From assembly GCF_900115675.1 (NCBI RefSeq), contig NZ_FOXI01000001.1:372001-436000 (forward strand): a DNA stretch of 64,000 bases, in the 5' to 3' direction. The DNA comes from Halolamina pelagica (GTDB lineage Archaea; Halobacteriota; Halobacteria; Halobacteriales; Haloferacaceae). The notes beneath the pieces were generated by a model, which worked only from the letters and a program-made list of their open reading frames with translations, did not search any database and was not told the DNA's origin. The position numbers were made by a program, and so were the translations under genes. Positions 1,515 through 34,295 of this stretch are shown here, piece after piece; position 1 is the first letter of the stretch; each line of letters starts with the position of its first letter.

Positions 1515-1526
1515 CGAACCGGTTCG
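1515..1526. promoter_or_regulatory. palindrome CGAACCGGTTCG upstream of DUF2249 gene
   Basis: Perfect CGAAC-N2-GTTCG palindrome whose centre is 44.5 nt before the ATG at 1565. It is followed by GGCACAAC, as at the mirror-image promoter of the gene starting at 2056. No good TATA box lies between site and start, which suggests activator dependence. Inferred regulator-binding site. Confidence 0.7.
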
Positions 1527-1564
1527 GCACAACGTTCCCCCCGTCTCTGGCCGTAACCCCGACC

Positions 1565-1837
1565 ATGTCGCCCGAACAGCAGCCCGAGATCGACGACCGG
1601 TTCGACGACGCGCCCGCCGCTCGCCCGCTCGCCCACCTGGACGCGCGGGACCTGCCCCCGCCCGAACCGCTCCGACGGACGCTCGAACGGCTCGCGGAAC
1701 TCGACGCCGACACCGCGCTCGTCCAGACGAACGACCGAGCGCCCCAGCACCTCTACCCGCGACTGGAGGAGCGCGGGTACGCCTACGAGACCGTCGAGAG
1801 CGACGACGCCGTCCTCACCGCGATCTGGGAGGCGTGA
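1565..1837 (+). CDS. DUF2249 domain protein
   Basis: A 90-residue acidic protein. Residues 25-90 form one DUF2249 domain: LDARDLPPPEP at the start, a central helix, TALVQTNDRAPQHLYPRLEERG, and a final strand ending in AIWEA. These small domains resemble the SirA/TusA fold and occur repeatedly in haloarchaeal denitrification regions; their biochemical role is not established. This is the first of three copies in this window (1565, 2056, 10352). It is convergent with the second, with 3 bases between the stops. The ATG at 1565 is chosen because a perfect palindrome is centred 44.5 nt upstream, the same spacing as at the related genes. Confidence 0.85.
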   Translation: MSPEQQPEIDDRFDDAPAARPLAHLDARDLPPPEPLRRTLERLAELDADTALVQTNDRAPQHLYPRLEERGYAYETVESDDAVLTAIWEA

Positions 1838-1840
1838 GGC

Positions 1841-2056
1841 TCAGGCGTGGTGGATCTCGACGCGCCACTCCTCCTCGGCGACCCGTTCGGTCTCGTGGTC
1901 GAACCCGCGCTGGTCGAGCACGGCGTACAGCGGTTCGGGCTCGAAGCTGTTGATCAACACGAGCGTCTCCGTCTCCGGCAGCGTCTCCAGTTCGTCGACG
2001 ATGCGGCCGAACGGCTCGCCGTCGACCTCGCGGACGTCGAGTGTCCTCTCGGGCAT
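1841..2056 (-). CDS. DUF2249 domain protein
   Basis: A 71-residue protein made only of a DUF2249 domain: TLDVREVDGEPFGRI, TLVLINSFEPEPLYAVLDQRGF, and a closing strand EEWRVEIHH. The open frame runs further upstream, but the ATG at 2056 is chosen because the homology begins there and a near-palindrome is centred about 45 nt before it. It lacks the roughly 20-residue N-terminal extension of its convergent neighbour. A role in nitrous-oxide respiration is inferred only from location and the shared promoter element. A sulfur- or metal-carrier role, by analogy with the TusA-like fold, is possible but untested. Confidence 0.85.
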   Translation of the reverse strand: MPERTLDVREVDGEPFGRIVDELETLPETETLVLINSFEPEPLYAVLDQRGFDHETERVAEEEWRVEIHHA

Positions 2057-2094
2057 GGCTTGACCCACGCAGTCCGCGGGGGTGGGGGTTGTGC

Positions 2095-2106
2095 CGAACA
2101 TGGTCG
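2095..2106. promoter_or_regulatory. near-palindrome CGAACATGGTCG upstream of minus-strand DUF2249 gene
   Basis: One mismatch from CGAAC-N2-GTTCG. Its centre lies about 45 nt from the start at 2056 on the minus strand. Read on that strand it is followed by GCACAACC, matching the promoter at 1515-1534. Confidence 0.55.
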
Positions 2107-2130
2107 ACACGAGGGCTGTTGGAAAAAGAA

Positions 2131-2142
2131 CGAACATGTTCG
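2131..2142. promoter_or_regulatory. palindrome CGAACATGTTCG upstream of the HTH_10 regulator
   Basis: Perfect CGAAC-N2-GTTCG palindrome centred 50 nt before the ATG at 2187. A TATA-like GTTATCC lies between, about 30 nt before the start. If the regulator binds this site it would control its own gene. Confidence 0.65.
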
Positions 2143-2186
2143 GGAACATCGTCTGGGTTATCCGTGTGCAACGCGAACGTAGAGCT

Positions 2187-2852
2187 ATGCCCGAAGCGAA
2201 ACTCACGCTCACGATCCCGGAGCGGACCTGGCCCGGCGAGATCTCCCGGACCCACGACGACGCGACGATCCGGATCCTGGCGGCGATGACCGAGACCGAC
2301 GCCGGGGTCGGGTTGGCGGAGATCGCCGCCCCCGACCCCCGGCAGGTTCTCGCCGACGTCCGCGCACACGACTCCGTCGACGACGTCGAGGTGCTCCAGT
2401 GTGGCGACGACGAGTGTCTCCTGCAGTTCCGAACCCACCTCCCGCTGTTGTTGCTGGCCGCCCGTGACTCGGGGCTCCCGCTGGAGATGCCGTTCGAGAT
2501 CCGCGACGGCGACGCGACGTGGACGCTGACCGCCGCCCAGGACGCCATCTCGGAGCTGGGCGACCAGCTCTCGGCGCTGGGGATCGCCTACACCGTCGAC
2601 TACCTCCAGCAGGAGGTCGCCGGCTCGGAGGAGCTGTTGACCGACCGCCAGCGCGCCATCGTCCGCGCGGCGATCGAGCGCGGCTACTACGACACGCCCC
2701 GGGAGTGCTCGCTGACCGAACTGGCCGACGCCGTCGGGCTCGCGAAGTCGACGGCGAGCGAGACGCTCCACCGCGCCGAGGAGCGCGTGATGAAGGAGTT
2801 CGCCGCCGCGGCCCTGGAGGAGCCGGAGCCACAGGCCGTCATCGAGCGGTAG
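2187..2852 (+). CDS. Bat-type HTH_10 transcriptional regulator
   Basis: A 221-residue regulator. Residues 1-150 resemble the Bat-type sensor region found in bacterio-opsin-activator-like proteins. Residues 160-215 form the HTH_10 DNA-binding domain: LTDRQRAIVRAAIERGYY, then a predicted helix-turn-helix LTELADAVGLAKSTASETLH. The frame extends 35 codons upstream, but the ATG at 2187 fits a leaderless transcript from the TATA-like element near 2157. The N-terminal half has CGDDEC rather than an obvious four-cysteine oxygen-sensing motif, so it is not clearly NarO. It is the closest regulator to the palindrome-controlled genes and to halocyanin-nosZ, and is the leading candidate for the local activator. 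That link is inference. Confidence 0.82.
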   Translation: MPEAKLTLTIPERTWPGEISRTHDDATIRILAAMTETDAGVGLAEIAAPDPRQVLADVRAHDSVDDVEVLQCGDDECLLQFRTHLPLLLLAARDSGLPLEMPFEIRDGDATWTLTAAQDAISELGDQLSALGIAYTVDYLQQEVAGSEELLTDRQRAIVRAAIERGYYDTPRECSLTELADAVGLAKSTASETLHRAEERVMKEFAAAALEEPEPQAVIER

Positions 2853-2915
2853 GCACGGGACCGACCGCGACGGTCGACCGCGCGTGAGCCGACCGCCGCT
2901 GGGGTTGGCACGGAT

Positions 2916-2927
2916 CGAACCCGTTCG
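2916..2927. promoter_or_regulatory. palindrome CGAACCCGTTCG, distal site upstream of halocyanin gene
   Basis: Perfect CGAAC-N2-GTTCG palindrome in the 235-nt gap between the regulator gene and the halocyanin gene, 89 nt upstream of a second copy at 3005. The pairing resembles the tandem sites at 10264 and 10301. Confidence 0.55.
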
Positions 2928-2941
2928 CGGCGTTCTTTTCT

Positions 2942-2953
2942 GGATAGCTATCC
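2942..2953. promoter_or_regulatory. 12-nt perfect palindrome GGATAGCTATCC
   Basis: A second, unrelated palindrome lies between the two CGAAC-N2-GTTCG sites in the halocyanin-nosZ promoter region. It could be a separate operator; no family is recognised. Confidence 0.35.
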
Positions 2954-3004
2954 CCGACAGAATAGTCGCCGCGTTCGCACCGGTTCAACGGATAAACCCC
3001 TGCC

Positions 3005-3016
3005 CGAACGCGTTCG
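3005..3016. promoter_or_regulatory. palindrome CGAACGCGTTCG, proximal site upstream of halocyanin-nosZ
   Basis: Perfect palindrome centred 77 nt before the halocyanin ATG at 3088. A TATA-like TCTGATAC at 3022-3029 would put the transcript start near 3055. The site would then sit about 45 nt upstream of that start, as at the leaderless genes. Confidence 0.6.
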
Positions 3017-3087
3017 TGAGTTCTGATACCGTGGGAACTCGCTGGACGGTTCTAGTAGTGGACTCCCGAACGAGGGTCTGTAGGAGC

Positions 3088-3573
3088 ATGACTGACGACA
3101 TTTCGCGACGACGGTTCGCTGTCGCGCTGGCGTCGACGGGCATCGGCATCGGACTCGCCGGCTGTGGCGGGGGCGGCGGGTCGACCGACTCCCCCACCGA
3201 CACGGCGACGCCGACCGAATCCGGCGGCGGCGGTGACGGCTTCGAACAGACGAACACGGTGGACATGACCGACGAGCTGACGTTCGAACCCAAGCAGATC
3301 GAGGTGGAGGCCGGGACGACGGTCACCTGGGAGAACGTCGGCTCCATCGGGCACTCGGCGACGGCGTACGAGGACGAGATCCCCGACGGCGCCGAGTACT
3401 TCGCCTCGGGTGGCTTCGACAGCGAGCAGGCCGCCGTCGACGCCTACCCCGACGAGGGGAACGTCACCGAGGGCGGCACGTACGAACACACGTTCGAGAC
3501 GACCGGCGAGTACGAGTACTACTGCATCCCCCACGAGATGAACGGGATGGTCGGCACTGTACGGGTGGTCTGA
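3088..3573 (+). CDS. halocyanin-like blue copper lipoprotein
   Basis: A 161-residue type I copper protein, probably anchored outside the cytoplasmic membrane. The twin-arginine motif is at residues 7-9 (SRRRFAV). The lipobox LAGC puts the lipidated cysteine at residue 26, followed by a Gly/Ser/Thr-rich linker to about 52. The cupredoxin domain covers 55-161. The copper ligands appear to be His89 (GHSAT), Cys146, His149, and Met154 in the pattern C-x2-H-x4-M. Halocyanins carry electrons from membrane complexes to terminal reductases. With nosZ starting one base after the stop, this protein is the likely direct electron donor to nitrous-oxide reductase. The frame extends upstream to 2884, but the ATG at 3088 gives a proper Tat signal. 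Confidence 0.92.
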   Translation: MTDDISRRRFAVALASTGIGIGLAGCGGGGGSTDSPTDTATPTESGGGGDGFEQTNTVDMTDELTFEPKQIEVEAGTTVTWENVGSIGHSATAYEDEIPDGAEYFASGGFDSEQAAVDAYPDEGNVTEGGTYEHTFETTGEYEYYCIPHEMNGMVGTVRVV

Positions 3574-3574
3574 G

Positions 3575-5572
3575 ATGAGTACCAACACTGACACCGACGA
3601 GGAGGAGCGCACCGAGCGGAAAGATTCCGAGGAGCTGTTCGCGGAGCACGAGGCACAGCTGAACGAACTGCTCGCGGACGTGGAGGGACCCGACGCGCCC
3701 GAGGCGGAGTCGACGCTCCCCTCGCTGGGCGACGGCGTGACCCGCCGGGACGTGATGAAGGCGGGCGCGGCCGTCGGCGCCGTCGGCGGCCTCGCGGGCT
3801 GTGCGGGCCTGGGCAACAACACGGCCACCGAGTCGAACAGCGGCGGCGACGTGCCCGACCACAAGGTGCCGCCGGGCGAGCACGACGAGTACTACGGCTT
3901 CTGGTCGGGCGGCCACGCGGGCGACATCCGGGTGTACGGCATCCCGTCGATGCGCCAGCTCACCCGGATCCCGGTGTTCAACCGCGAGTCCGCGAAGGGG
4001 TACGGCCACGACGACCGCACCACCGAGATGCTCGAGGAGGCCGGCGACTACACGTGGGGTGACTCCCACCACCCGAGCCTCTCGGAGACCGACGGGAAGT
4101 ACGACGGGGAGTACATCTTCGTCAACGACAAGGCCAACGGCCGGGTCGCCCGGGTGAACCTCACCTACTTCGAGACCGACGCGATCGTCGACATCCCGAA
4201 CGTCCAGTCGGTCCACGGCTGCTGTATCCAGAGCCCGGACACCGGCTACGTGTTCGCGAACAGCGAGTTCCGGACGCCGATGCCCAACGACGGGCGGGAC
4301 GTGAACGAACCCGAGGAGTACGTCTCGGTGTTCAGCGCGCTCGATCCCGAGAGCATGGACGTGCTCTGGCAGGTCGAGGTCGACGGCCAACTCGACATCG
4401 TCGACTCCGACAAGGACGGCCGTTGGGTGCTCTCCTCCTCCTACAACGACGAGGAGGGCGTCGAGGTCGAGGAGATGACCAAGGACGACCGGGACGACGT
4501 GAAGGCGTTCGACGTGCCCGCGATCCAGGAGCTCGTCGACGCCGGCGAGTACGAGGAGGTCAACGGCGTCCCCGTCGTCGACGGGACGAAGGAGAGCCCG
4601 CACAACGAGGGCGACGACCCCATCGTGCGGTACATCCCGACGCCGAAGTCGCCCCACTGCGTCGAGGTGACGCCGGACGGCAAGTACGGGATGGTCGCCG
4701 GGAAGCTCTCACCGACCGTCTCCATCATCGACATCGAGAAGCTGGCCACCGCCGACGACCCGGCCGACACCATCGTCGGCCAGCCGAAGGTCGGCCTCGG
4801 GCCGCTGCACACGACCTACGACGACCGCGGGCACGCCTACACCTCCCTGTTCATCGACTCCCAGGTCGTGAAGTGGGACATCGAGGAGGCCGTCAACGCC
4901 GAGAAGGGCTCCGAGGAGCCGATCCTCGGCAAGATCGACGTGCACTACAACCCCGGCCACATCCAGGCGGTTCAGGCGATGTCGACCGAGCCGGAGGGCA
5001 ACTGGCTGGTCGCGCTCAACAAGCTCTCGAAGGACCGCTTCCTCCCGGTCGGGCCGATCTACCCCGACAACGACCAGCTCATCTACATCGGGAACGACAA
5101 GGACGACGAGACCGGCGGGATGGAACTGGTCGCGGACCACCCGGTGTACCCCGAACCCCACGACGCGATCTTCGCCCACAAGGACAAGATCGAGCCCGCG
5201 ACGACGTGGGATCCGGAGGACTACGACGAGGAGTTCGTCAGCGAGGAGGACTCCCGGGTCGAGCGCGTCGACGACTCCACCGTCGAGGTGTACGCCTCTG
5301 TCAAGCGTAGCGAGTACGGCCTGCGTGACTTCACCGTCCAAGAGGGCGACGAGGTCACCCTGACCGCGACCAACATCGAGGGGACACAGGACATCGTCCA
5401 CGGGCTCGCGATCCCCGAACACGACGTGAACCTCGCGCTGGCGCCCCAGGACACGCGACAGGTGACGTTCACCGCCGACGAGCCCGGGGTGTACTGGATC
5501 TACTGTACGTACTTCTGCAGCGCGCTCCACCTGGAGATGCGCTCGCGAATGATCGTGGAACCGTCCGAGTAG
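3575..5572 (+). CDS. nosZ: nitrous-oxide reductase
   Basis: A 665-residue copper enzyme that reduces N2O to N2 outside the cytoplasm. A long acidic N-region precedes the twin-arginine signal TRRDVMKAG at residues 56-64. A lipobox-like LAGC follows with Cys76. Residues 90-540 form the seven-bladed propeller, with histidine motifs expected for the CuZ cluster (DSHHPS, PHCVEV, HTTYD, GHIQAVQ, EPHDA). The C-terminal cupredoxin domain carries the CuA site C-TYF-C-SAL-H-LE-M (Cys644, Cys648, His652, Met655). The gene lies one base after the halocyanin stop and 4 nt before the next gene, so it belongs to one operon with them. No nosR or nosL is visible nearby. Confidence 0.97.
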   Translation: MSTNTDTDEEERTERKDSEELFAEHEAQLNELLADVEGPDAPEAESTLPSLGDGVTRRDVMKAGAAVGAVGGLAGCAGLGNNTATESNSGGDVPDHKVPPGEHDEYYGFWSGGHAGDIRVYGIPSMRQLTRIPVFNRESAKGYGHDDRTTEMLEEAGDYTWGDSHHPSLSETDGKYDGEYIFVNDKANGRVARVNLTYFETDAIVDIPNVQSVHGCCIQSPDTGYVFANSEFRTPMPNDGRDVNEPEEYVSVFSALDPESMDVLWQVEVDGQLDIVDSDKDGRWVLSSSYNDEEGVEVEEMTKDDRDDVKAFDVPAIQELVDAGEYEEVNGVPVVDGTKESPHNEGDDPIVRYIPTPKSPHCVEVTPDGKYGMVAGKLSPTVSIIDIEKLATADDPADTIVGQPKVGLGPLHTTYDDRGHAYTSLFIDSQVVKWDIEEAVNAEKGSEEPILGKIDVHYNPGHIQAVQAMSTEPEGNWLVALNKLSKDRFLPVGPIYPDNDQLIYIGNDKDDETGGMELVADHPVYPEPHDAIFAHKDKIEPATTWDPEDYDEEFVSEEDSRVERVDDSTVEVYASVKRSEYGLRDFTVQEGDEVTLTATNIEGTQDIVHGLAIPEHDVNLALAPQDTRQVTFTADEPGVYWIYCTYFCSALHLEMRSRMIVEPSE

Positions 5573-5576
5573 GACC

Positions 5577-6287
5577 ATGGAACGCCCGCAATGGAGCCAG
5601 TTCGGCGAGATCAGGCGGCTGCTGCCGCTGCTAGCGGCGGCGCTGCTCGTGGTCGCGCTGTTCTTCCCGATGTGGCACATTCGGATGGACGCGGTCCAGT
5701 ACCCCAGCGAGACGCTGACGCTCGGGCTCTACGCCTACCCGCGGATCAGCGGTGACTACGTGGAGATCGCCCGCCTGAACCACTACATCGGGTTCTACTA
5801 CCCGGACCCGGTGTTCTGGCCGCCGAACTACGAGCCCCACCCCGACGCGATCGACGTGCCGGAGTGGTCGTTCGGGCCGCTGGCGTTCGTCGGCGTGGCG
5901 GCGACCAGCCTGTTCGTGGCGGTCGCGCCGACGGCGCGGAAGCTCCGTCGCGGGCTCACGGCGCAACTGGTCGGCTCCGTACTGGTGTTCACTGTCCTGC
6001 TCGCCGACATCCAGTACCGGCTTTACCAGGCGGGCCACACGCTCGATCCCGACGCGCCAGTGATGGGCGTCGACCCGTTCACGCCGCCGCTGTGGGGGAA
6101 GTACGCGGTGGCGAACATCACCAGCTACTCCCGGTTCGGCGTCGGCGCCTACCTGACCGTGGCGGCTATCGGCCTGCTGCTGGTCGCGTGGGCGGCCCGG
6201 GACTCCACGGCGACGGTGGACGAACTGCCCCGGATCGTCCGGGGGCTCCCGACCGACTCCGGGACCGAATCGGGCGGGGGGAGGTGA
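5577..6287 (+). CDS. membrane protein of the nos operon, unknown function
   Basis: A 236-residue protein with four predicted membrane segments: about residues 14-32, 96-117, 125-147, and 184-204. A roughly 65-residue loop between the first two contains aromatic-rich stretches (YIGFYYPDPVFWPPNYEPHP). There are no cysteine clusters, so a ferredoxin or NosR-like redox domain is excluded. The gene sits 4 nt after nosZ and 7 nt before nosD, so it is almost certainly co-transcribed. It could anchor NosZ or halocyanin, pass electrons, or help copper insertion. I do not recognise a characterised family. Confidence 0.85.
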   Translation: MERPQWSQFGEIRRLLPLLAAALLVVALFFPMWHIRMDAVQYPSETLTLGLYAYPRISGDYVEIARLNHYIGFYYPDPVFWPPNYEPHPDAIDVPEWSFGPLAFVGVAATSLFVAVAPTARKLRRGLTAQLVGSVLVFTVLLADIQYRLYQAGHTLDPDAPVMGVDPFTPPLWGKYAVANITSYSRFGVGAYLTVAAIGLLLVAWAARDSTATVDELPRIVRGLPTDSGTESGGGR

Positions 6288-6294
6288 ACCGCTG

Positions 6295-7677
6295 ATGGAC
6301 GACGCCGGACTCGAACGCGGGTTCGTCGCGCTCGTGGTCGTCGTGGCGGCCGCGCTCGTGGGGGTGACGTTCGCCCCCACGTCGGCGGCGACGCCGACGC
6401 CCGCAGCCGACGCGGAGCGCCCCGACGACTTCGCGTTCGACCCCGTGACCGAGTCCGGCGTCGCCACCGTCGGCGACGAGTCGTTCGACTCCGTCCAGCG
6501 CGCCGTCGACGCCGCCGAGCCGGGCGAGACGGTGCTCCTTCGCGGCCGGTTCGACGAGCGCGTCGTCGTGAACACCACGGGGGTGACCGTCACGACCGCA
6601 CCCGACGCGCGGGCCGTGATCGACGGCGGGCAGGAGGGCGACGTGGTCACTGTCGAGGCTCCGAACGTCACCGTCCGGGGGGTCTGGATCCGCAACGCCG
6701 GGATGGACACCTCGACCAACGACGCCGGGGTCTGGGTCGACGCGCCGAACGTCACCGTCGCCGACAGTCGGCTGACGCGGATCACCTTCGGCGTCTGGGT
6801 CGACGGCGTCGACGACGCCCGCCTGCGGAACAACACCATCGTCGGCCGGGAGAACGTCACGCCGCGGTCCTACCGGGGTAACGGCATCCAGCTCTGGAAG
6901 ACCGCCGGGACGCTGGTGGAGGACAACCGCATCACCGACGCCCGGGACGGCATCTACTACTCCTGGGCGTCGAACGTGACCGCCCGCGGGAACGCGCTGT
7001 GGGACCTGCGTTACGGCGTCCACTACATGTACTCCGACAGCTCGCGGCTGGCGAACAACACCGCCGTCGACAACGACGTGGGCTTCGCCCTGATGCTCTC
7101 GGAGGACATCGCGGTCGTGAACAACACCGCCGCGAACAACACCGGCACCAGCGGCCACGGGATCCTGCTCAAGCGTATCGACTACTCGACGGTTCGCGGG
7201 AACGAGTTCGTCGGCAACAAACGCGGGATCTACTCGCTGAACTCCGCGGACAACGAGATCGTCGACAACCTCGTGCTCGGCAACCGGATCGGCTTCCACC
7301 TGACCGCCGGCACCCACGGCGAGCGCGTCGTCGGCAACAGCTTCGTCGGCAACGCCCGCCACGTCCAGGCGGTCACCAGCGACACGCACGTCTGGAACGA
7401 CTCCGACCGCGGGAACTACTGGAGCGGCGGCGGCGCCGCCGACCTGGACGACGACGGCGTGAGCGAACTCCGCTACCGCCCCGCGGGGCTGGTCGAGAAG
7501 CTGGTCCGCGAGAACCCGACTGCCGCGGTGTTCACGAACAGCCCGGCGTTCCGCGCGCTGCGGCGGGCCGAACGGACGCTCCCGATCGTCGACGCGCCGG
7601 GGGTCGTCGACTACCACCCGCTCGAACGCTCGCCACACGACTGGAGGGACCACTATGCACGCGATAGCGACGACTGA
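6295..7677 (+). CDS. nosD: NosD, copper-site maturation protein for nitrous-oxide reductase
   Basis: A 460-residue secreted or membrane-anchored protein. An N-terminal hydrophobic segment (residues 9-30) is followed by a right-handed parallel beta-helix of about 300 residues. The helix is made of NosD/CASH-type repeats rich in N-N-T and G-I motifs (LRNNTIVG, ARGNALWD, VVNNTAANNTG, VRGNEFVGN). NosD works with the NosFY ABC transporter to supply sulfur or copper for the CuZ cluster of NosZ. The C-terminus ends in a charged tail that overlaps the start of nosF by 23 nt, indicating translational coupling. Length matches known NosD proteins. Confidence 0.93.
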   Translation: MDDAGLERGFVALVVVVAAALVGVTFAPTSAATPTPAADAERPDDFAFDPVTESGVATVGDESFDSVQRAVDAAEPGETVLLRGRFDERVVVNTTGVTVTTAPDARAVIDGGQEGDVVTVEAPNVTVRGVWIRNAGMDTSTNDAGVWVDAPNVTVADSRLTRITFGVWVDGVDDARLRNNTIVGRENVTPRSYRGNGIQLWKTAGTLVEDNRITDARDGIYYSWASNVTARGNALWDLRYGVHYMYSDSSRLANNTAVDNDVGFALMLSEDIAVVNNTAANNTGTSGHGILLKRIDYSTVRGNEFVGNKRGIYSLNSADNEIVDNLVLGNRIGFHLTAGTHGERVVGNSFVGNARHVQAVTSDTHVWNDSDRGNYWSGGGAADLDDDGVSELRYRPAGLVEKLVRENPTAAVFTNSPAFRALRRAERTLPIVDAPGVVDYHPLERSPHDWRDHYARDSDD

Positions 7678-8416
7678 CCTGACGAAACGGTACGGCGACG
7701 TGCTCGCGCTCGACGGCGTGAGCCTCTCGATCGAGGCGGGCACGACCTACGGCCTGCTGGGCACCAACGGCGCCGGCAAGTCCACGCTGTTCAAACTGCT
7801 CGTCGGCCACCTCACCCCCGACTCGGGGACGGTGACCGTCGGCGGCCAGGACGTGACGGAGGCCGGCCACGAACTCCGCGAGGTGGTTGGCTACGTCCCC
7901 GAACACGCGGGGTTCCCCGCCGCGCTCACGGGCCGAGAGGTGCTGGGCTACCACGCCCGTTTGCGGGGAGTACCGAAAGCGGAGCGCCCCGACAGGGTCG
8001 CCGCCGCACTCGGCACCGTCGGCCTCGACGACGCCGCGGACCGCCGGGTCGGCGGCTACTCCAACGGGATGAACCGCCGGCTCGCGCTCGCGTCGGCGCT
8101 GCTCGACCGGCCGCGGTTGCTGCTGTTGGACGAACCCACTGCCGGCCTCGATCCGCTGGGCGTCGCGGAGTTCCACCGCATCCTCGACCGCCTCCGGGAG
8201 GAGTCGGATCTCACGGTCGTGATCACGACCCACGTGCTCGCGGAGGTCGAGGCGCTCTGTGAGGACGTGGCGGTGCTCCACGACGGCGACCTGCTGTTCG
8301 ACGGCGCCGTCGACGACCTGCAGGAGTTGGGCGACGACGACCTCGAAGCCGGGTTCGGGAGCCTGGTCGCGGAGGCGGGCGGGAGTCGCGGCGAAACCCT
8401 GGAGGTGGACCGATGA
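7655..8416 (+). CDS. nosF: NosF-type ABC transporter ATPase
   Basis: A 253-residue ATP-binding subunit. The Walker A motif is GTNGAGKST at about residues 36-44. The signature region is GGYSNGMNRRLALASAL, and Walker B is LLLLDEPTAGLD, with the switch histidine in TTHVLAEVE. The C-terminal 40 residues are acidic. It energises the membrane partner NosY, and the pair acts with NosD during copper-site assembly of NosZ. It overlaps nosD by 23 nt and nosY by 4 nt, so the three form one translational unit. Assignment as NosF rather than a general ABC ATPase rests on position in the nos operon. Confidence 0.93.
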   Translation: MHAIATTDLTKRYGDVLALDGVSLSIEAGTTYGLLGTNGAGKSTLFKLLVGHLTPDSGTVTVGGQDVTEAGHELREVVGYVPEHAGFPAALTGREVLGYHARLRGVPKAERPDRVAAALGTVGLDDAADRRVGGYSNGMNRRLALASALLDRPRLLLLDEPTAGLDPLGVAEFHRILDRLREESDLTVVITTHVLAEVEALCEDVAVLHDGDLLFDGAVDDLQELGDDDLEAGFGSLVAEAGGSRGETLEVDR

Positions 8417-9282
8417 CCGACGCGGAGCCGGACGGCGGCGTCGCCGAGGGGACCGCCCTCGGGCTGCCGAGCCTCGCCGCCGACGGCTCGCCGCTCGGCC
8501 AGGTCGCCACGATCGCGCGGCTGGAGTTCTCGCTCGCGGTCCGGAACCGCTGGGCGTTCGCGCTGACGGCGCTGTTCGCCTCGCTGTCGGTGCTCGTCGT
8601 CGCGCTGGGCGGGCAGGGCGGCGTCGTCCGCGCCGACGCGGTGGTGGTGAGCCTGGTCGAGCTCTCGGCGCTGCTGCTGCCGCTGGTCGCGCTGCTGTTC
8701 GGCTACGACGCCGTGGTCGGCAGCGACGAGTCGGGCTGGCTGGGCGTGCTGTTCGCGCTCCCGATCCCGCGGGGTCGCGTCGTCCTCGGCACCTACCTCG
8801 GCCGGCTCGCGGTGTTCTCTGGGGGCGTCGTCGCCGGCTTCGGCGTCGGCGGGCTCTGGCTCGCGATTCAGGGGCGGCTCACGACAGCGTACCTGGGGCT
8901 CGTGGGCGCGGCGGTGCTCGGCGGCGCCGCCTTCCTCGCGCTGTCGGTGCTGCTGTCGACGCTGGCCGCGGAGAAGACCCACGCCCTCGGCGGCGCGCTG
9001 CTGCTGTGGGTCTGGGTCGCGCTGGTCCACGATCTCGTCTCCGTCGGGCTGATCGCCGCCGACGTGGTCGGCCCGAACTGGCTCCCGGTGTTCGTGCTCG
9101 CGAATCCCGCGACCGCGTTCCGGGTGCTCGCGCTCCAGTCGGTGCCGACGGTCACTGGGGGGATGGCCGAGGTGCTGGTCGGGTCCGGGGTGACGACGCC
9201 GGTGCTCGTGGCGGCGCTGGTCGTGTGGAGCGCCGCGGGGGCGTGGCTGGCGAGTCGGCTGATCGCCCGGCGGAGCGTCTGA
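8413..9282 (+). CDS. nosY: NosY-type ABC transporter permease
   Basis: A 289-residue polytopic protein with about six membrane segments, starting near residue 35 after a soluble N-terminus. Hydrophobic blocks include ALTALFASLSVLVVAL, LSALLLPLVALLFGYDAVVG, and VLVAALVVWSAAGAWLAS. It is the membrane partner of NosF. The cytoplasmic loop after LLFGYDAVVGSDESGWLGVL is typical of ABC-2 type permeases. It overlaps nosF by 4 nt and ends the operon. The following 81 nt to the convergent gene at 9364 contain only a short T run near 9302-9305. Confidence 0.92.
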   Translation: MTDAEPDGGVAEGTALGLPSLAADGSPLGQVATIARLEFSLAVRNRWAFALTALFASLSVLVVALGGQGGVVRADAVVVSLVELSALLLPLVALLFGYDAVVGSDESGWLGVLFALPIPRGRVVLGTYLGRLAVFSGGVVAGFGVGGLWLAIQGRLTTAYLGLVGAAVLGGAAFLALSVLLSTLAAEKTHALGGALLLWVWVALVHDLVSVGLIAADVVGPNWLPVFVLANPATAFRVLALQSVPTVTGGMAEVLVGSGVTTPVLVAALVVWSAAGAWLASRLIARRSV

Positions 9283-9363
9283 GTTCCGCCGCCGGTTAGA
9301 GGTTTTGCGAGTGAGGGGAGGGTTGACTCGGGAGACGGCACGAACCGGTAGCTCCCGTGATCC

Positions 9364-9630
9364 CTACTCCACGTGCAACGAGTAGAGGATCACGGCGAAC
9401 CCGAGCGTCGTGAACGCGCTTTCGGCGACGAGCGCGAAGTCGGAGTTCACCGGGAGGAGTTGGTCGACGATTCCCGCGACCAGCGCGCCCAGCGTGACGG
9501 CGCCGAAGCCGACCGCGAGCGCCCGGAGCGCGGGCGAGCCGTTACGTCGGTAGGCCCGGTACGCGTAGAACGTGATCGAGCCGCCGAGGACGAGCGTGAG
9601 CGTCTTGAGCGCGACGACGGCGACGTTCAT
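9364..9630 (-). CDS. small haloarchaeal membrane protein (DUF7521-like)
   Basis: An 88-residue protein with three predicted membrane segments (about residues 3-22, 34-56, and 64-84). The charged loop after the first segment reads AYRAYRRNGSP. Proteins of this size and pattern are commonly encoded just after a winged-helix regulator in haloarchaea, and here the gene overlaps the regulator by 4 nt. That suggests a membrane sensor paired with its regulator, but no function has been shown. It is convergent with nosY and does not have the nos palindrome upstream. Confidence 0.8.
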   Translation of the reverse strand: MNVAVVALKTLTLVLGGSITFYAYRAYRRNGSPALRALAVGFGAVTLGALVAGIVDQLLPVNSDFALVAESAFTTLGFAVILYSLHVE

Positions 9631-10049
9631 GTCTCCGTGCGCACCTCCGACCAGAGCTTCGAGAGGCGCTGTTCGGGCGTCGACTCCGTGCGGTCGATCG
9701 ACAATTCGAGCGTCCCCTCCTCGGTCAGCGAGACGTTGATCTCCTCGAAGTCGGCGACGTAGCGCGTCGTGTGGCGGCCGTCCTCCCGGATCTCCGTGCG
9801 CTCCTCGACCAGCCCGGCGTCGCTGAGCATGTCCAGCTTCCGGTAGGTCGTCGACTGCGGGATCTCACACGCCTCACAGAGCTCCTTCGCGGCCATCGGA
9901 CGGTCGAGCCGTTCGAGGATGGCCCGGCAGTCCGAGTCCTCCAGCGCGTCGAACACCGTCTGCAGCGTCGGCGTCTCGGCGGCGAGCGGGTCACTCGTCA
10001 TCGTCTTTTCCTCGGCGGGTCGCGTCGTGTCGTGCATGTAACCAGTCAT
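9627..10049 (-). CDS. winged-helix transcriptional regulator, ArsR-like
   Basis: A 140-residue protein. Residues 25-90 form a winged helix: LQTVFDALEDSDCRAILERLD, then a helix-turn-helix with AAKELCEACEIPQSTTYRKLDMLSDAGLVEE, and a wing with IREDGRHTTRYV. The remaining residues form a strand-rich C-terminus. Starts are possible at 10049, 10037, and 10001. The last would be leaderless from a TTACAT element near 10034 and trims 16 residues without touching the domain. It overlaps the membrane-protein gene by 4 nt. Direct target and ligand are unknown; CEACEIPQ holds two cysteines that could sense redox state or metal, which is speculative. Confidence 0.82.
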   Translation of the reverse strand: MTGYMHDTTRPAEEKTMTSDPLAAETPTLQTVFDALEDSDCRAILERLDRPMAAKELCEACEIPQSTTYRKLDMLSDAGLVEERTEIREDGRHTTRYVADFEEINVSLTEEGTLELSIDRTESTPEQRLSKLWSEVRTET

Positions 10050-10141
10050 CTGTCTCGGGGCCGTCGGGTGATCGGCGCGGCGGTGCGGACGCCATCGGCG
10101 GCTATCGCGGCGGGTACGGCGGTCGCCTCGTTCCGGTCGAG

Positions 10142-10179
10142 CGACCCGCAGTTGCGTGGTCGGGAGCGACTGCGGGTCG
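10142..10179. repeat. perfect 11-bp inverted repeat in intergenic region
   Basis: CGACCCGCAGT at 10142-10152 pairs with ACTGCGGGTCG at 10169-10179 across a 16-nt loop. It lies in the roughly 300-nt gap between the divergent winged-helix gene and the third DUF2249 gene. The rest of that gap is G+C-rich sequence without an evident gene, plus the palindromes at 10264 and 10301. The element may be an operator, an RNA hairpin, or a terminator from an unseen transcript. Confidence 0.5.
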
Positions 10180-10263
10180 GCGTCGGTCGTGGAGAGAGAT
10201 GGTGTCGTTCACCCATGGCATCGATAGCTCATTCTACTGCCCTGGGACACCAGTCGGTGCTGC

Positions 10264-10275
10264 CGAACATGTTCG
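10264..10275. promoter_or_regulatory. palindrome CGAACATGTTCG, distal site
   Basis: Perfect palindrome, identical to the one at 2131-2142, placed 37 nt upstream of a second copy before the DUF2249 gene at 10352. Confidence 0.6.
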
Positions 10276-10300
10276 CACGCGGGCCTCCAGCACCCCGAGG

Positions 10301-10312
10301 CGAACACGTTCG
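10301..10312. promoter_or_regulatory. palindrome CGAACACGTTCG, proximal site of DUF2249 gene
   Basis: Perfect palindrome centred 45.5 nt before the ATG at 10352. The flank GGAGCAAC resembles GGCACAAC at 1526-1533. A weak TATA-like CTTTCT lies near 10320. Confidence 0.68.
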
Positions 10313-10351
10313 GAGCAACTTTCTGGGCCCGGCGCGTGCGAGGGAAAACAG

Positions 10352-10585
10352 ATGTCCGATACGACTCTCGACGTCCGCGACGTGCCGCCGTCGGACCGCC
10401 ACCCGAAGATCCACGACGCCTTCGCGGCGCTCGACAGCGGCGACGAACTGGTGATCGTCAACGACCACGAGCCCAAACCGCTGTTCTACGAGATGCAGGC
10501 CGAGGTCGAGGCGTTCGACGCCGACGGCTACGCGGTCGAACAGCGCGCCGACGACGAGTACGTGGCGCGGTTCCCCAAACAGTAG
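10352..10585 (+). CDS. DUF2249 domain protein
   Basis: A 77-residue protein consisting of one DUF2249 domain: TLDVRDVPPSDRHPKIHDAF, ELVIVNDHEPKPLFYEMQAEVEAF, and a last strand DEYVARFPK. The HEPKPLFYEM segment corresponds to FEPEPLYAVL in the copy at 1841-2056. The open frame extends to 10199, but the ATG at 10352 matches the domain boundary and the conserved spacing from the palindrome. It is followed after 88 nt by the histidine-rich membrane protein gene, which has its own palindrome, so the two may be co-regulated rather than strictly one operon. Confidence 0.85.
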   Translation: MSDTTLDVRDVPPSDRHPKIHDAFAALDSGDELVIVNDHEPKPLFYEMQAEVEAFDADGYAVEQRADDEYVARFPKQ

Positions 10586-10623
10586 CCGTCGAACCCCGCC
10601 CAGGCGCCCGGTCGGTCATGTCC

Positions 10624-10635
10624 CGAACGTGTTCG
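10624..10635. promoter_or_regulatory. palindrome CGAACGTGTTCG upstream of histidine-rich membrane protein gene
   Basis: Perfect palindrome centred 44.5 nt before the ATG at 10674. A GTG inside the palindrome (10629) opens a longer frame but is not a credible start. Confidence 0.68.
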
Positions 10636-10673
10636 GAGCCATCGGGAGGCGGCTGGAGCCCCTTCTCGAGGAC

Positions 10674-12032
10674 ATGAGCGCGATCCCGGGCGACGTGGAC
10701 CCCGACCGCCAGCCGCCGATGACGGTGCCGCTCCGGCACTTCCTCGTCGCGAGCGCGTTCCTCCCGCTGGGCGTGCTGGCCGGCGTCGCCGCCGTCGCCG
10801 ACTTCCGGCCGGGCCTGCTCTCGCTCGCACACGCCCACCTGCTGCTCGTGGGCTGGGTCTGTCTCACCATCGCCGGCGCGATGACCCAGTTCGTCCCCGT
10901 CTGGTCGGGCGTCGACCTCCACTCGACGCGGCTCGCCGCCCTCCAGCTTCCGCTGCTCGCCGGCGGCCTGCTCGGGTTCGCGGCCAGCCTGCTCCTGACG
11001 CGGCTCGCGCTCCTGCCCGTCTTCGGCGCGGCGATGCTGCTCGGCTTCTGGCTGTTCGTCTACAACGTCGGCCGGACGCTGGCCCGCGCGCGGCCGTTCG
11101 ACGTCACCGAGCGCCACTTCGCGCTCGCGCTCGGCTTCTTCGTGCTGGCGCCGCTGCTCGGCCTCGTGCTGGCGGTCGACTTCACGCACCCGCTACTGGC
11201 TGGGGGCCCAGTGACTCGCCCCGGCGTCGTCGCCGCCCACGCGACCCTCGCCGTCTTCGGCGCCGTGCTCACGACCGTCCTCGGCGCGCTCTACCAGCTG
11301 GGGACGATGTTCACCCAGACCGAGCTCCACGGCGTCGACGAGCCCCTCCGCCGGGTCGAGGAACTCGGCTTCCCGACGGGGGTCCTGTTGCTGGCTGGCG
11401 GGCGACTCGTCGGGTCGGCGTCGCTGGCCCGGGTCGGCGGCGCGCTCGTCGCGCTGGCGCTGCTTTCGTTCTCGATCGTGCTCGCGCGGCGGCTCTGGGG
11501 GACGGAAGTCGACCGGACGCCGATGCTCTCGCGGTACGCCGTCGTCGCGGCGGCGACGGCGCTGTGGGCCGCGCTCGCGCTGCCCGCGTGGCTCGCGGAT
11601 CCGCTCGCTCGCGCGAGCCTGCTGGGGGCTCCCGGGACGACCCACCTCCTCCTGCTCGGCGTCGTGGGGTTCGTCGTCCTCGGGACGGTTTATCACGTCG
11701 TCCCGTTCGTCGTCTGGGTCCACCGCTACAGCGACCGACTGGGGTACGAACCCGTGCCGATGGTCGACGACCTCTACGACGGCCGCGTCGCCGCGGCGGA
11801 CTTCTGGAGCCTCCTCGTCGGCGCTTCCCTGCTCGTCGCCGACGATCTGCTCGGGCTCCCGTCGGCCGCCTCTCCCGTCGGCGGCCTCCTCGCGCTCGTC
11901 GGGACGGTGCTGTTCGTCGCGAACGTCGTCGGCGTCGTCCGCGAGCACGCGCCCCAGTCCCTTCCCACGGTGCTGTTCGGCGACTGGGCGGCGGCGTCGG
12001 AGGCCGAACCCGGCCCCGTCGAGAGCGACTGA
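10674..12032 (+). CDS. polytopic membrane protein resembling heme-copper oxidase subunit I / NnrS
   Basis: A 452-residue protein with about 12 predicted membrane segments and histidines inside several of them: PLRHFLVASAFLPLG, LAHAHLLLVGWVC, VVAAHATLAVFGAV, THLLLLGVVGFVVLGTVYHVVPFVVWVHRY. This pattern recalls heme-binding membrane proteins of the cbb3 oxidase/NorB group and the NnrS family of nitric-oxide response proteins. It does not clearly carry the full six-histidine heme-copper set, so I do not call it an oxidase or NO reductase. The start at 10674 is set by the palindrome spacing and by the first real ATG. Regulation with the nos genes suggests a role in NO/N2O metabolism or heme sensing. 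Confidence 0.72.
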   Translation: MSAIPGDVDPDRQPPMTVPLRHFLVASAFLPLGVLAGVAAVADFRPGLLSLAHAHLLLVGWVCLTIAGAMTQFVPVWSGVDLHSTRLAALQLPLLAGGLLGFAASLLLTRLALLPVFGAAMLLGFWLFVYNVGRTLARARPFDVTERHFALALGFFVLAPLLGLVLAVDFTHPLLAGGPVTRPGVVAAHATLAVFGAVLTTVLGALYQLGTMFTQTELHGVDEPLRRVEELGFPTGVLLLAGGRLVGSASLARVGGALVALALLSFSIVLARRLWGTEVDRTPMLSRYAVVAAATALWAALALPAWLADPLARASLLGAPGTTHLLLLGVVGFVVLGTVYHVVPFVVWVHRYSDRLGYEPVPMVDDLYDGRVAAADFWSLLVGASLLVADDLLGLPSAASPVGGLLALVGTVLFVANVVGVVREHAPQSLPTVLFGDWAAASEAEPGPVESD

Positions 12033-12053
12033 GTCGTCGCCGCCCGCCCGACC

Positions 12054-12065
12054 GTTCGGGCGAAC
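12054..12065. promoter_or_regulatory. inverted-arm palindrome GTTCG-GG-CGAAC upstream of cupin gene
   Basis: The arms are the same pentamers as in the nos palindromes but in the opposite order. The centre is 37.5 nt before the cupin ATG at 12097, with a weak TATA-like CTTAGG between. It may be coincidental or a different site. Confidence 0.3.
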
Positions 12066-12096
12066 GCTTAGGGCCGAGCCGGTCGGAGTGCCGTCG

Positions 12097-12405
12097 ATGC
12101 CCGAGATCATCGCCATCGACGAGCTCGCCGAGGCACCACACGCCGAGGTGTTCGAGGAGCGACGACCACGGACCGTCCGCCTCGAACTCGACGCCGGCGA
12201 CGAGGTCCCGCCCCACACCCACCCCGGGACGAACGTCGTCCTCTACCTTCTCGACGGTCGCCTCGACCTCGCACTCGACGGCGAGACGCACGAACTCGAA
12301 CCCGGCGACGTCGCGCGATTCAGCGGGGAGCGGGAGATCTCGCCCCGTGCGGTCGAGGCGAGCACGGCGCTGATCGTGTTCGCGCCGACGACCGGGGGGT
12401 CGTAG
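12097..12405 (+). CDS. small cupin-domain protein
   Basis: A 102-residue single cupin. The metal-binding first motif is PPHTHPGTNVVLYLLDGRLDL, with two histidines in H-x-H form. The second motif is ELEPGDVARFSG. The N-terminus PEIIAIDELAEAPHAEVFEE is typical of haloarchaeal cupins of this size. No catalytic assignment can be made; small cupins may be dioxygenases, isomerases, or sensors. A GTG at 12088 would add three residues; the ATG at 12097 is preferred. It follows the membrane protein gene by 64 nt and converges with the gene ending at 12450. Confidence 0.85.
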   Translation: MPEIIAIDELAEAPHAEVFEERRPRTVRLELDAGDEVPPHTHPGTNVVLYLLDGRLDLALDGETHELEPGDVARFSGEREISPRAVEASTALIVFAPTTGGS

Positions 12406-12449
12406 CGACGGGGCCGCGGTCGCGGCGGCGAGTCCCGTCGACGCCCGGC

Positions 12450-12998
12450 TCAGAAGGGTGCGTCCGACGCGTCCGCGGCGCCGTCGTCCGCCTCGCCCGC
12501 CCCGTCCGGAACGGTTCCGGTCTCCCGGTACTCCTGTTCCAGCGAGCGCAACTGCTCGTTGACGGCGTCGCTCTCCTGGTGCATCGGCGCCGCACGGATC
12601 CGGACCAGATCGTAGTCGTGGCGGTCGCTGAGCCCGTTCCAGGCCCGGAACGCGCCGACGGTGAGGGTGTGGGTCTGCGGACAGAACGCCGTCGTCGGCG
12701 TGAACTCGGCGCGCAGCACGTTCCGCTCGCCGACCTCCTCGGCGTACCGGAAGCCCGCCCCGGGGTGTCGCGTGTCGAGGTTGAGGCGTGCCAGGTTGTA
12801 GCCGAAGGTCATGTCGTAGACGCCGCGCTCCTCGAACAGTTCGCGTGCGGTCCCGTGGACCGCGACGTGGGCGTCGTCGGTGAGGAGTTCGTGGCCGGCG
12901 AGGAACTCGCCGGGCTCGGGGAGGTGGTCCGGGACGAACTCGTCGTCATCGTCGAACGTCGCGTCGTCGTTGCCGCCGAAGGGGGAGAGTCCGGGCAT
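12450..12998 (-). CDS. MIP18/DUF59-like Fe-S assembly factor homologue
   Basis: A 182-residue protein. After an acidic N-terminal half, residues 105-170 read AEFTPTTAFCPQTHTLTVGAFRAWNGL, then a loop, APMHQESDAVNEQLRSLEQE. This lines up with the eukaryotic CIA2/MIP18 pattern FTPT-x2-HC, a following helix, and TPGTH-x4-AVN-x-QL, including the single conserved cysteine. MIP18/DUF59 proteins deliver Fe-S clusters to target proteins. The alignment is from memory and the N-terminal half is not recognised. The ATG at 12998 is chosen because a degenerate nos-type palindrome is centred 44.5 nt upstream, which ties the gene to the denitrification-linked set. It might support Fe-S targets needed under anaerobic conditions. 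Confidence 0.62.
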   Translation of the reverse strand: MPGLSPFGGNDDATFDDDDEFVPDHLPEPGEFLAGHELLTDDAHVAVHGTARELFEERGVYDMTFGYNLARLNLDTRHPGAGFRYAEEVGERNVLRAEFTPTTAFCPQTHTLTVGAFRAWNGLSDRHDYDLVRIRAAPMHQESDAVNEQLRSLEQEYRETGTVPDGAGEADDGAADASDAPF

Positions 12999-13036
12999 GA
13001 ACGAGCGTACGCGTTCTCGCTCCCTACCCGTGGCCC

Positions 13037-13048
13037 CGAACATCTGCG
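13037..13048. promoter_or_regulatory. degenerate palindrome CGAACATCTGCG upstream of MIP18-like gene
   Basis: One intact CGAAC arm and a decayed second arm, centred 44.5 nt before the minus-strand ATG at 12998. The spacing matches the other sites exactly. Confidence 0.45.
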
Positions 13049-32906: not shown

Positions 32907-34295
32907 ATGGACCTCCCCAAGCGGACCCTCCGCCTCCTGCTCGCGGCGCTGGTCCTCGTCGCCGCGTCGACGATCGTCGCCGGCTACGTCGAGAGCGAGC
33001 GCACGAACGACCGCGTGACCGGCGACCCCGCGGTCGAGCAGGCGTTCCGGTCGGGCGACGACGCGGCGGTCGTCGGGGAGCGCGACAACGTCACCGTCGT
33101 CGCGACGGACTCGAACGCGTTCGTCAGCGACGAGAGCGACGCGCCGCGAGCACGGGCCGAACTCGCGGCGTTCGCGCCGGACGGGAGTCTCTACTACTAC
33201 CAGAACGACCACACGCGCTACTGGGACGTCGACCCCGTCGAGGGCACCAGCCACACGGTCGAGTTCGTCTACGCGGACCACCTCGACGCCGACGAGTGCG
33301 ACGGCGCGGTCTGCACCCGGAACGGGGTCGAGCGCGTCAACCTCACGACCGGCGAGCGAACCGACGTGTTCAGCCGGATCACCGCCGGCAAGCACTCCAC
33401 GCGCTGGCACGACGCCGACCGCATCGACGAGGACCGCCTGCTCGTCGCCGACATCGCGCAGGACCGCGCGTTCATCGTGAACACCACGACGGGGCTGATC
33501 GAGTGGTCCTGGGAGGCGCAGGCCGACTACGGCGTCGAGAGCGGCGGCCCGTTCCCCGAGGACTGGACCCACATCAACGACGTGGAGCACGTCGAGGTCG
33601 ACGGCGAGGAGGCGGTGATGGTCAGCCTCCGGAACCAGGACCAGGTCTCGTTCGTCGACATGCAGGGCGAGCTGATGGCGGAGTGGACGCTCGGCGCCGA
33701 CGGCGACCACGCGACGCTGTACGAACAGCACAACCCCGACTTCATCCCGGCCGAGGAGGGCGGGCCCGCACTCCTCGTCGGCGACTCCGAGAACGGCCGG
33801 ATCGTCGAGTACCAGCGCGAGAACGGCGAGTGGGTCGAGTCCTGGACGTGGGCCGACCAGCGGATCCAGTGGCCCCGCGACGCCGACCGGCTGCCCAACG
33901 GCCACACGCTGATCACCGACTCTAACGGCGACCGCGTCTTCGAGGTCGACCGGGAGGGGGAGATCGTCTGGTCGGCCGACGTCGGCTTCCCCTACGAGGC
34001 CGAGCGCCTCGGCACCGGCGACGAGAGCACGGGCGGCGAGAGCGCGGCGTCGCTGGGGCTCGAGAGCCACGAGCCCGCCCCCGAGGCGGCGTCGGCGCGC
34101 CAGCGCGTCGAGAACGCGCTGCCGCCGACGATCCAGAACGCGATCGCCTACGTGTTCCCGCGCTGGGTCGGCCTGCTCGAGGAGCTCGCGATCGTCGTCC
34201 TGGTCGGGAGTCTGCTGCGCTGGGCGACGCTCGAGTACCGCTGGCTCGACCACACGATCGCGTTCCGATTCCCCATCGAACTCCGCCGGAAATGA
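32907..34295 (+). CDS. arylsulfotransferase-like (ASST family) membrane-anchored beta-propeller protein
   Basis: A 462-residue protein. One membrane helix at residues 9-27 is followed by an external domain of about 370 residues, and another helix lies near 415-435. The propeller repeats contain HSTRWHDADRIDEDRLLVADI, DWTHINDVEHVEVDGEEAVMVSLRNQD, and RLPNGHTLITDSNGDRVFEVDREGEIVWS, matching the ASST/arylsulfotransferase fold. These enzymes move sulfate between phenolic compounds, but haloarchaeal members are uncharacterised. Two cysteines (ECDGAVC) could form a disulfide. The next gene overlaps by 4 nt. A role in surface polymer or lipid modification is inferred from the glycosyltransferase-like neighbour. 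Confidence 0.78.
   Translation: MDLPKRTLRLLLAALVLVAASTIVAGYVESERTNDRVTGDPAVEQAFRSGDDAAVVGERDNVTVVATDSNAFVSDESDAPRARAELAAFAPDGSLYYYQNDHTRYWDVDPVEGTSHTVEFVYADHLDADECDGAVCTRNGVERVNLTTGERTDVFSRITAGKHSTRWHDADRIDEDRLLVADIAQDRAFIVNTTTGLIEWSWEAQADYGVESGGPFPEDWTHINDVEHVEVDGEEAVMVSLRNQDQVSFVDMQGELMAEWTLGADGDHATLYEQHNPDFIPAEEGGPALLVGDSENGRIVEYQRENGEWVESWTWADQRIQWPRDADRLPNGHTLITDSNGDRVFEVDREGEIVWSADVGFPYEAERLGTGDESTGGESAASLGLESHEPAPEAASARQRVENALPPTIQNAIAYVFPRWVGLLEELAIVVLVGSLLRWATLEYRWLDHTIAFRFPIELRRK

Follow-up and report, generated by a model that had tools for sequence, protein, structure and literature searches.

The haloarchaeal denitrification palindrome in Halolamina pelagica: site distances, a second promoter element and candidate regulators

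In a stretch of 64,000 nucleotides from Halolamina pelagica (contig NZ_FOXI01000001.1, positions 372,001 to 436,000; hereafter the window), the genes of a nitrous-oxide island are preceded by copies of the palindrome CGAAC-N2-GTTCG. Judged by its letters, this palindrome is the published haloarchaeal denitrification cis-element (CGAA-N4-TTCG, or CGAAYATDKTYG) and not a new one. We consider it probable that it is the site of a dimeric activator of the HTH_10 type (Bat/NarO/DmsR-type), that it is used in two geometries, and that the HTH_10/Bat-type protein encoded at 2187-2852 is the likeliest binder. The additions of this analysis are one exact site distance before many unrelated genes, and a second control site that is often present in the promoters of the main enzymes.

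For Haloferax mediterranei the semi-palindromic denitrification motif is given as CGAAYATDKTYG, and the site of nos and nor as CGAACATGTTCG (PMC10062603); the window sites at 2131 and 10264 are identical in every letter to these published nosp and norp sites. A change of the first base of the site lowered the activity of the nos and nor promoters significantly, while the drop for nirK was non-significant (PMC10062603). The same source counts 83 promoter regions with the motif in H. mediterranei, and credits Hattori 2016 with a similar motif in several genera. CGAA-X4-TTCG is stated to be essential for the activity of the Haloferax volcanii nirK promoter, with reference to Hattori 2016 (PMC5746218). 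Induced genes with the motif in the RNA-seq data of H. mediterranei include two of the four DUF2249 genes and a Bat-like regulator gene (PMC11218638). A first-pass annotation of the window, made from the letters only, had left open whether its palindrome was the denitrification element; on the passages in PMC10062603 and PMC5746218 it is.

The palindrome in the nitrous-oxide island

A pattern scan of the window recovered the seven perfect copies that the first-pass annotation had listed in the island, all of them between genes (span 1515-10635). An eighth perfect copy, at 33112, lies within an open reading frame (ORF) outside the island. Dinucleotide shuffles contained 0.27 perfect sites per window on average, and none of 100 shuffles reached eight. 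The whole genome (3.16 Mb, 37 contigs) has 40 perfect sites, 25 of which lie within called ORFs (about 0.5 per 64 kb); the seven intergenic sites within 9.1 kb are thus far above the in-gene density. The intergenic share of the perfect sites is 7/7 in the island, 0/1 elsewhere in the window and 8/32 in the rest of the genome. By the shuffles and by the in-gene density, the earlier expectation of 0.06 sites per 64 kb was too low.

The two degenerate copies were recovered as well, the one at 2095 with one mismatch and the one at 13037 with two. Scanning with up to two mismatches was rejected as evidence by itself (141 sites in the window versus 77 expected). Because such matches are common, the case for the site at 13037 is its exact position together with a family of homologous genes that have better sites: the cluster of the Halorussus homologue (56% identity) of the 12450-12998 gene has sites at 43.5-44.5 nt in seven of eight site-gene pairs. 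The promoter-proximal half, GTTCG, is retained in three degenerate sites (2095, 13037 and the half-site at 12047-12058). A gene similar to the cupin gene 12097, behind that half-site, is preceded in the Halolamina rubra locus by CGAACGTCTTCG at 44.5 nt.

For gene calls and start positions we used a simple codon-based caller, by which all nine sites of the earlier list are intergenic. The distance from site centre to start is 44.5 nt for four genes (1565, 2056, 10674 and 12998), 45.5 nt for gene 10352 and 50.5 nt for gene 2187; the earlier range of 44.5-50 nt holds for the five at 44.5-45.5 nt and falls just short of the sixth. Further upstream sites lie before gene 3088 (two) and gene 10352 (one). 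A reading of the palindrome as an RNA hairpin was set aside, as its loop would measure 2 nt and the palindrome stands upstream of the promoter. The features of the island are as follows.

1515..1526, plus strand: perfect palindrome, centre 44.5 nt before DUF2249 gene 1565
1565..1837, plus strand: DUF2249 protein gene (Pfam PF10006)
1841..2056, minus strand: DUF2249 protein gene (Pfam PF10006)
2095..2106, minus strand: one-mismatch palindrome, 44.5 nt before minus-strand gene 2056
2131..2142, plus strand: perfect palindrome CGAACATGTTCG, 50.5 nt before regulator gene 2187
2187..2852, plus strand: HTH_10/BAT-domain regulator gene (HTH_10 PF04967, E=7e-20; BAT), candidate binder
2916..2927, plus strand: perfect palindrome, 166.5 nt before halocyanin gene 3088
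3005..3016, plus strand: perfect palindrome of the upstream class (B), 77.5 nt before halocyanin gene 3088
3020..3038, plus strand: second inverted element GTTCTGATACCGTGGGAAC, between palindrome and core promoter
3088..3573, plus strand: halocyanin/plastocyanin-type copper protein gene, directly 5' of nosZ (Pfam PF00127, scanned from 3046; start as given by the caller)
3575..5572, plus strand: nosZ nitrous-oxide reductase gene (Pfam nos_propeller)
10264..10275, plus strand: perfect palindrome CGAACATGTTCG, 82.5 nt before gene 10352
10301..10312, plus strand: perfect palindrome, 45.5 nt before gene 10352
10352..10585, plus strand: DUF2249 protein gene (Pfam PF10006)
10624..10635, plus strand: perfect palindrome, 44.5 nt before gene 10674
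10674..12032, plus strand: membrane protein gene, weakly COX1-like (Pfam COX1 below cut-off)
12047..12058, plus strand: tentative half-site with GTTCG retained, exactly 44.5 nt before cupin gene 12097
12450..12998, minus strand: gene without Pfam or NCBIfam match, 56% identity to a Halorussus protein
13037..13048, minus strand: two-mismatch palindrome with perfect proximal half, 44.5 nt before gene 12998

The palindrome thus precedes denitrification and helper genes (halocyanin-nosZ, DUF2249, regulator). The membership of the DUF2249 genes agrees with the induced motif genes of H. mediterranei, whereas the MIP18-likeness once suggested for the 12450-12998 gene found no match in Pfam or NCBIfam. 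NCBIfam gave no name above cut-off for this gene or for the 2187 protein. The region 9364-10049 encodes an ArsR/HTH_20-type regulator and a small protein, with no perfect palindrome at promoter distance.

Two promoter geometries

Related loci were chosen solely by the regulator protein (62 loci, 1.18 Mb in total); by this protein the nearest named genome is that of Halolamina rubra (95% identity). These loci contain 116 intergenic copies of the palindrome and 8 within genes, whereas each of 29 permuted palindromes of the same composition has at most two intergenic occurrences. A start lies within 200 nt of 147 intergenic CGAA-N4-TTCG sites, and for 51 of these the distance is exactly 44.5 nt; the runner-up distances have 7 each. 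The genes at exactly 44.5 nt are spread over 13 of the 37 protein clusters formed at BLAST E 1e-6 from the 62 loci, the window and six loci from its own genome, so that the register is not explained by the descent of a single promoter. In 116 genomes of the class, the palindrome followed by N38-ATG has 283 matches, versus 687 summed over the eleven spacings N24-34 (mean 62 each), where the N38-ATG counts include in-gene matches and the variable-gap search may count a site once only. The scan of related genomes that the first-pass annotation had proposed therefore yields a clear enrichment at 44.5 nt, and its description of a palindrome at fixed spacing beside the weak-TATA core promoter of leaderless-looking genes holds for the promoters described next.

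Promoters with the site at 44.5 nt (class A) were separated from those with a more distant site (class B) after the distance histogram had been viewed, and the class statistics are descriptive. In 53 non-redundant class A promoters the site is followed by G (92%) and G (60%), with A at -34 (60%), -33 (77%) and -10 (62%). The AA at -34/-33, after GG-RNAA next to the site, is BRE-like, and we place the putative TFB-recognition element (BRE) there. A TATA-like hexamer is present in 1/60 class A, 7/22 class B and 113/488 control promoters, on a strict score that most controls fail as well. The A+T content at -31..-24 is 0.34 in class A and 0.47 in class B, versus 0.51 in controls (p=4e-10 and p=0.44, respectively). 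By eye, similar letters follow the site in regulator genes that have it at 48-52 nt, so its position seems to be fixed relative to the core promoter and not to the start codon. Like known BRE-adjacent activator promoters, those of class A have a site directly upstream of the predicted BRE at a fixed distance and a weak core promoter.

In the halocyanin-nosZ, norB and nirK promoters the palindrome is mostly found about 73-88 nt upstream and the TATA frequency is ordinary. Of the 16 site-gene pairs in the halocyanin cluster, 11 fall at 73.5-85.5 nt and the remaining five at 110-148 nt; three of six norB pairs are at 73.5 nt, and four of five nirK pairs at 83.5-87.5 nt. The norB genes were identified by the Pfam NorB domain and nirK of loci L066 and L088 by TIGR02376 above cut-off; the copper protein of L140 scored below the NirK cut-off (65.5 of 296 bits), and those of L142 and L145 resemble it by eye. 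We rejected the idea that the genes at 73-78 nt are 44.5-nt genes with a leader and a Shine-Dalgarno sequence: such letters are seen in only 2/12 genes, and the TATA box and second element favour a separate architecture, although a few of these genes, e.g. window gene 3088, may be leadered. On the annotated nosZ plasmids of Haloferax larsenii the DUF2249 sites lie at 46.5 and 53.5 nt and the halocyanin site at 75.5 nt, with one mismatch each.

The second inverted element, TTYY-N8-KRGAAY, often lies between palindrome and TATA box, two helical turns downstream of the palindrome. KRGAAY at +16 to +23 is present in 13/35 class B promoters (70-120 nt) versus 3/80 of class A (shuffles: mean 0.4, maximum 3). 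The composite of palindrome and second element has 33 matches across 31 of the 116 genomes, and the reversed pattern has none. With the gap lengthened by 10 bp there are 8 matches, five of them within one genus; with 5 bp there are 6, which all immediately precede the regulator gene, in two genera, and are effectively one promoter. The pattern does not occur in the genome of the window or in two others of its genus: the gap in the window is 4 nt, and the pattern requires 5-8. By eye, the second element is clear in Natronococcus and not in H. larsenii. Occurrence of GTTCY-N8-GRGAAY in the genome was rejected as uninformative by itself (28 strand hits).

In 50 non-redundant composites, KRGAAY follows after a gap of 16-20 in 39 cases and of 27-30 in the other 11; 25 of the 50 come from loci fetched by the pattern itself, and intermediate gaps were disallowed by the script. 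The single composite from the window is site 10264 read backwards, probably a chance match. A called start lies within 200 nt downstream in 22 of the 30 loci fetched by the composite and is lacking in eight, one of these being inside an ORF. The downstream genes encode NorB, NirK-like, multicopper-oxidase-type, SCO1/SenC, radical-SAM-like (by eye) and PaaB-like proteins and a DmsR_N regulator. The PaaB-like gene, not an obvious denitrification gene, follows the composite at 69.5 nt in nine genomes of one genus (g2; L146-L154; Pfam run on one).

Candidate regulators and alternative readings

The 2187 protein has Pfam matches to HTH_10, BAT and, weakly, HTH_IclR, and so shares the C-terminal HTH_10 domain of NarO. 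NarO reportedly also carries an N-terminal cysteine motif, CXnCXCX7C, in Hattori's account of 2016. The 2187 protein has no DmsR_N match and no such N-terminal motif, its cysteines being only at 72, 77 and 174. A site with at most one mismatch lies 38-56 nt before the start in 35/59 of its orthologues versus 101/1044 genes in the same loci, members included (the set excludes five loci that were fragments or distant, and the count excludes three paralogues; fragments L065 and L115 were kept). If the 2187 protein binds the palindrome, it would hence regulate itself. CGAACATRTTCG is found in 94/103 genomes with a regulator match versus 6/13 without (Fisher p=0.0003, kinship uncorrected). The regulator tree, made by a quick method and with many long branches, served for orientation only. 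We regard the 2187 protein as the likeliest binder, and its nomination in the first-pass annotation as plausible. The orthologue in another H. pelagica locus (L065, 10001-10607) has a stop after 53 codons within a match of 203 residues, a frameshift or an assembly error.

Regulators of a second, cysteine-bearing type also occur. One in the same genome (L041) combines DmsR_N, HTH_10 and the full CXnCXCX7C motif, as expected of NarO/DmsR, and has neither element in its promoter. In ten genes of the DmsR_N/HTH_10 type (the DmsR_N scan covered L041, L060, L155 and L180), the palindrome is found at 44.5 nt in L180, L181, L184 and L085 (full motif), the composite in L155 and L170 (both without the last cysteine), and only a one-mismatch site at 88.5 nt in L131. 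Two NarO-like genes of Haloarcula with the full motif (L060 and L064) have the second element without the palindrome; we therefore offer the DmsR_N type as its candidate binder, a hint from one genus.

Carrying the oxygen response over from Haloferax, we envisage that at low oxygen an activator turns on the genes of nitrogen-oxide respiration and their helpers. In class A the bound dimer would abut the BRE, with its centre 44.5 nt before a start that looks leaderless. Since the TATA region is GC-rich, the activator probably recruits TFB/TBP itself; by analogy with GvpE it could reach them directly and so offset the poor TATA box. In class B (halocyanin-nosZ, norB, nirK) the second element would be the site of a second regulator; the palindrome lies about two helical turns above it on the same DNA face, which would suit cooperation of the two. 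Tentatively, we propose that the helper genes depend on a single activator locked against the BRE, and that the enzyme genes are AND-gated with a second regulator at TTYY-N8-KRGAAY, which may be a NarO/DmsR-type sensor.

Several observations weigh against this picture. The published nar site is immaterial for activity, the first-base change being without significant effect there (PMC10062603). None of the 12 Halorubrum regulator promoters has the site, although the recognition-helix region is conserved there, so that autoregulation does not extend to all orthologues. Nearly all genomes of the class have the regulator (103/116 at E up to 1e-20, possibly including paralogues), which makes co-occurrence a weak test. 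In the genome of the window the nirK-like promoter appears, by eye, to have the second element without the palindrome, and the norB promoter neither a clear palindrome nor a second element. The gene starts are those of a simple caller. Finally, the L041 protein could itself bind the palindrome.

This last reading, in which a NarO/DmsR-type cysteine regulator binds the palindrome and the 2187 protein is merely a target that binds the second element or other sites, is in our view possible, yet the less probable assignment. NarO is called the sole described transcriptional regulator of the pathway (PMC11218638), and the L041 protein has the domains and cysteines that the 2187 protein lacks. However, H. 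mediterranei is reported to be without NarO homologues while the palindrome is functional there (PMC10062603), the small regulator has the site before its own gene in most orthologues, and the two Haloarcula genes have the second element only. The palindrome might also be a repressor operator, e.g. for the ArsR/HTH_20-type protein 9627-10049, blocking transcription in the presence of oxygen: a winged-helix regulator gene does lie within the island, and repressor and activator sites can look alike in sequence. This we hold to be very improbable, as the site lies upstream of the BRE and not over the TATA box or start, the low A+T content at the TATA position of class A points to promoters that are weak without help, and mutation of the Haloferax site makes nos and nor promoter activity fall, not rise (PMC10062603).

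As to the second element, it could be a by-product of shared promoter ancestry, or a diverged second site for the same regulator. Several of the 33 composites are indeed near-identical promoters (nine in genus g2 before the PaaB-like gene, three in g31), the pattern is unmatched in the genome of the window and its two relatives, and KRGAAY resembles an altered GAAC half-site. We nevertheless think this unlikely: the composite precedes unrelated genes (halocyanin, norB, nirK, SCO1/SenC and the DmsR_N regulator), the frequency of KRGAAY in class B far exceeds that in shuffles (13/35 versus a mean of 0.4), and the 33 matches stand against 0, 8 and 6 for the reversed and the two lengthened patterns, the last of which all come from the same regulator promoter.

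The element outside the island and in comparison with known systems

The term dedicated regulon, earlier applied to the nitrous-oxide island, proved too narrow. Elsewhere in the genome, intergenic sites lie 44.5 nt before a cupin gene and a MoaD/ThiS-like gene. A further site lies 49.5 nt before the gene of a CGCGG-family putative radical-SAM (rSAM)-modified RiPP (ribosomally synthesized and post-translationally modified peptide) precursor (TIGR03995; L030, G000:C31, 2056-2358), which is followed by a TIGR04053 radical SAM gene. The cluster of this precursor has six site-gene pairs at 44.5 nt, which would place a peptide-modification system under the denitrification switch. Another site (L054, G000:C31, 8411) lies between a gene without Pfam match, 119.5 nt away, and a protoporphyrinogen oxidase gene (TIGR00562), 143.5 nt away. 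Three Halorussus loci have the site 44.5 nt before homologues of the oxidase, a link between haem synthesis and the regulon. The gene of glutamyl-tRNA reductase (hemA) has a site 82.5 nt upstream (L056, G000:C14, 5043). Two of the eight intergenic sites outside the window (L028 and L029) are far from any called start, at 131.5 and 518.5 nt, and may mean nothing.

Few archaeal activators have a known geometry relative to TFB/TBP, and halophilic denitrification bears on the release of N2O from saline waters. The regulator that acts on the motif is called undisclosed in PMC11218638; the register and the two promoter classes offer sharp tests and name two candidate proteins.

With the Haloferax motif the palindrome shares the core letters, the genes (nos, nor, nirK, DUF2249 and the Bat-like regulator) and the intergenic location upstream of the start. 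The published Haloferax positions of 66, 69 and 79 nt for nor, nos and nirK, presumably measured from the end of the site, fit class B. Neither the 44.5-nt class with poor TATA nor the second element appears in the passages cited here or elsewhere in our literature search; subscription papers lay outside that search and Hattori 2016 may show both, so that we make no claim of priority.

The closest analogy for class A is GvpE at the gas-vesicle promoters, where a 20-nt activator site adjoins the BRE, a short distance between this upstream activator sequence and the BRE is essential, and GvpE interacts with TFB and TBP in vitro (PMC4390858). GvpE differs in being a leucine-zipper-like protein with a site of two 8-nt parts, 4 nt apart (PMC4390858). 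Bat of Halobacterium is likewise an HTH activator of a low-oxygen gene (bop) through an upstream activator sequence, and cooperates with Brz; it has PAS and GAF domains (PMC3184054), whereas the 2187 protein has only HTH_10, BAT and the weak HTH_IclR match. NarO and DmsR, finally, share the HTH_10 DNA-binding domain and the link to denitrification or DMSO respiration with the 2187 protein, and are set apart from it by DmsR_N and the N-terminal cysteine motif.

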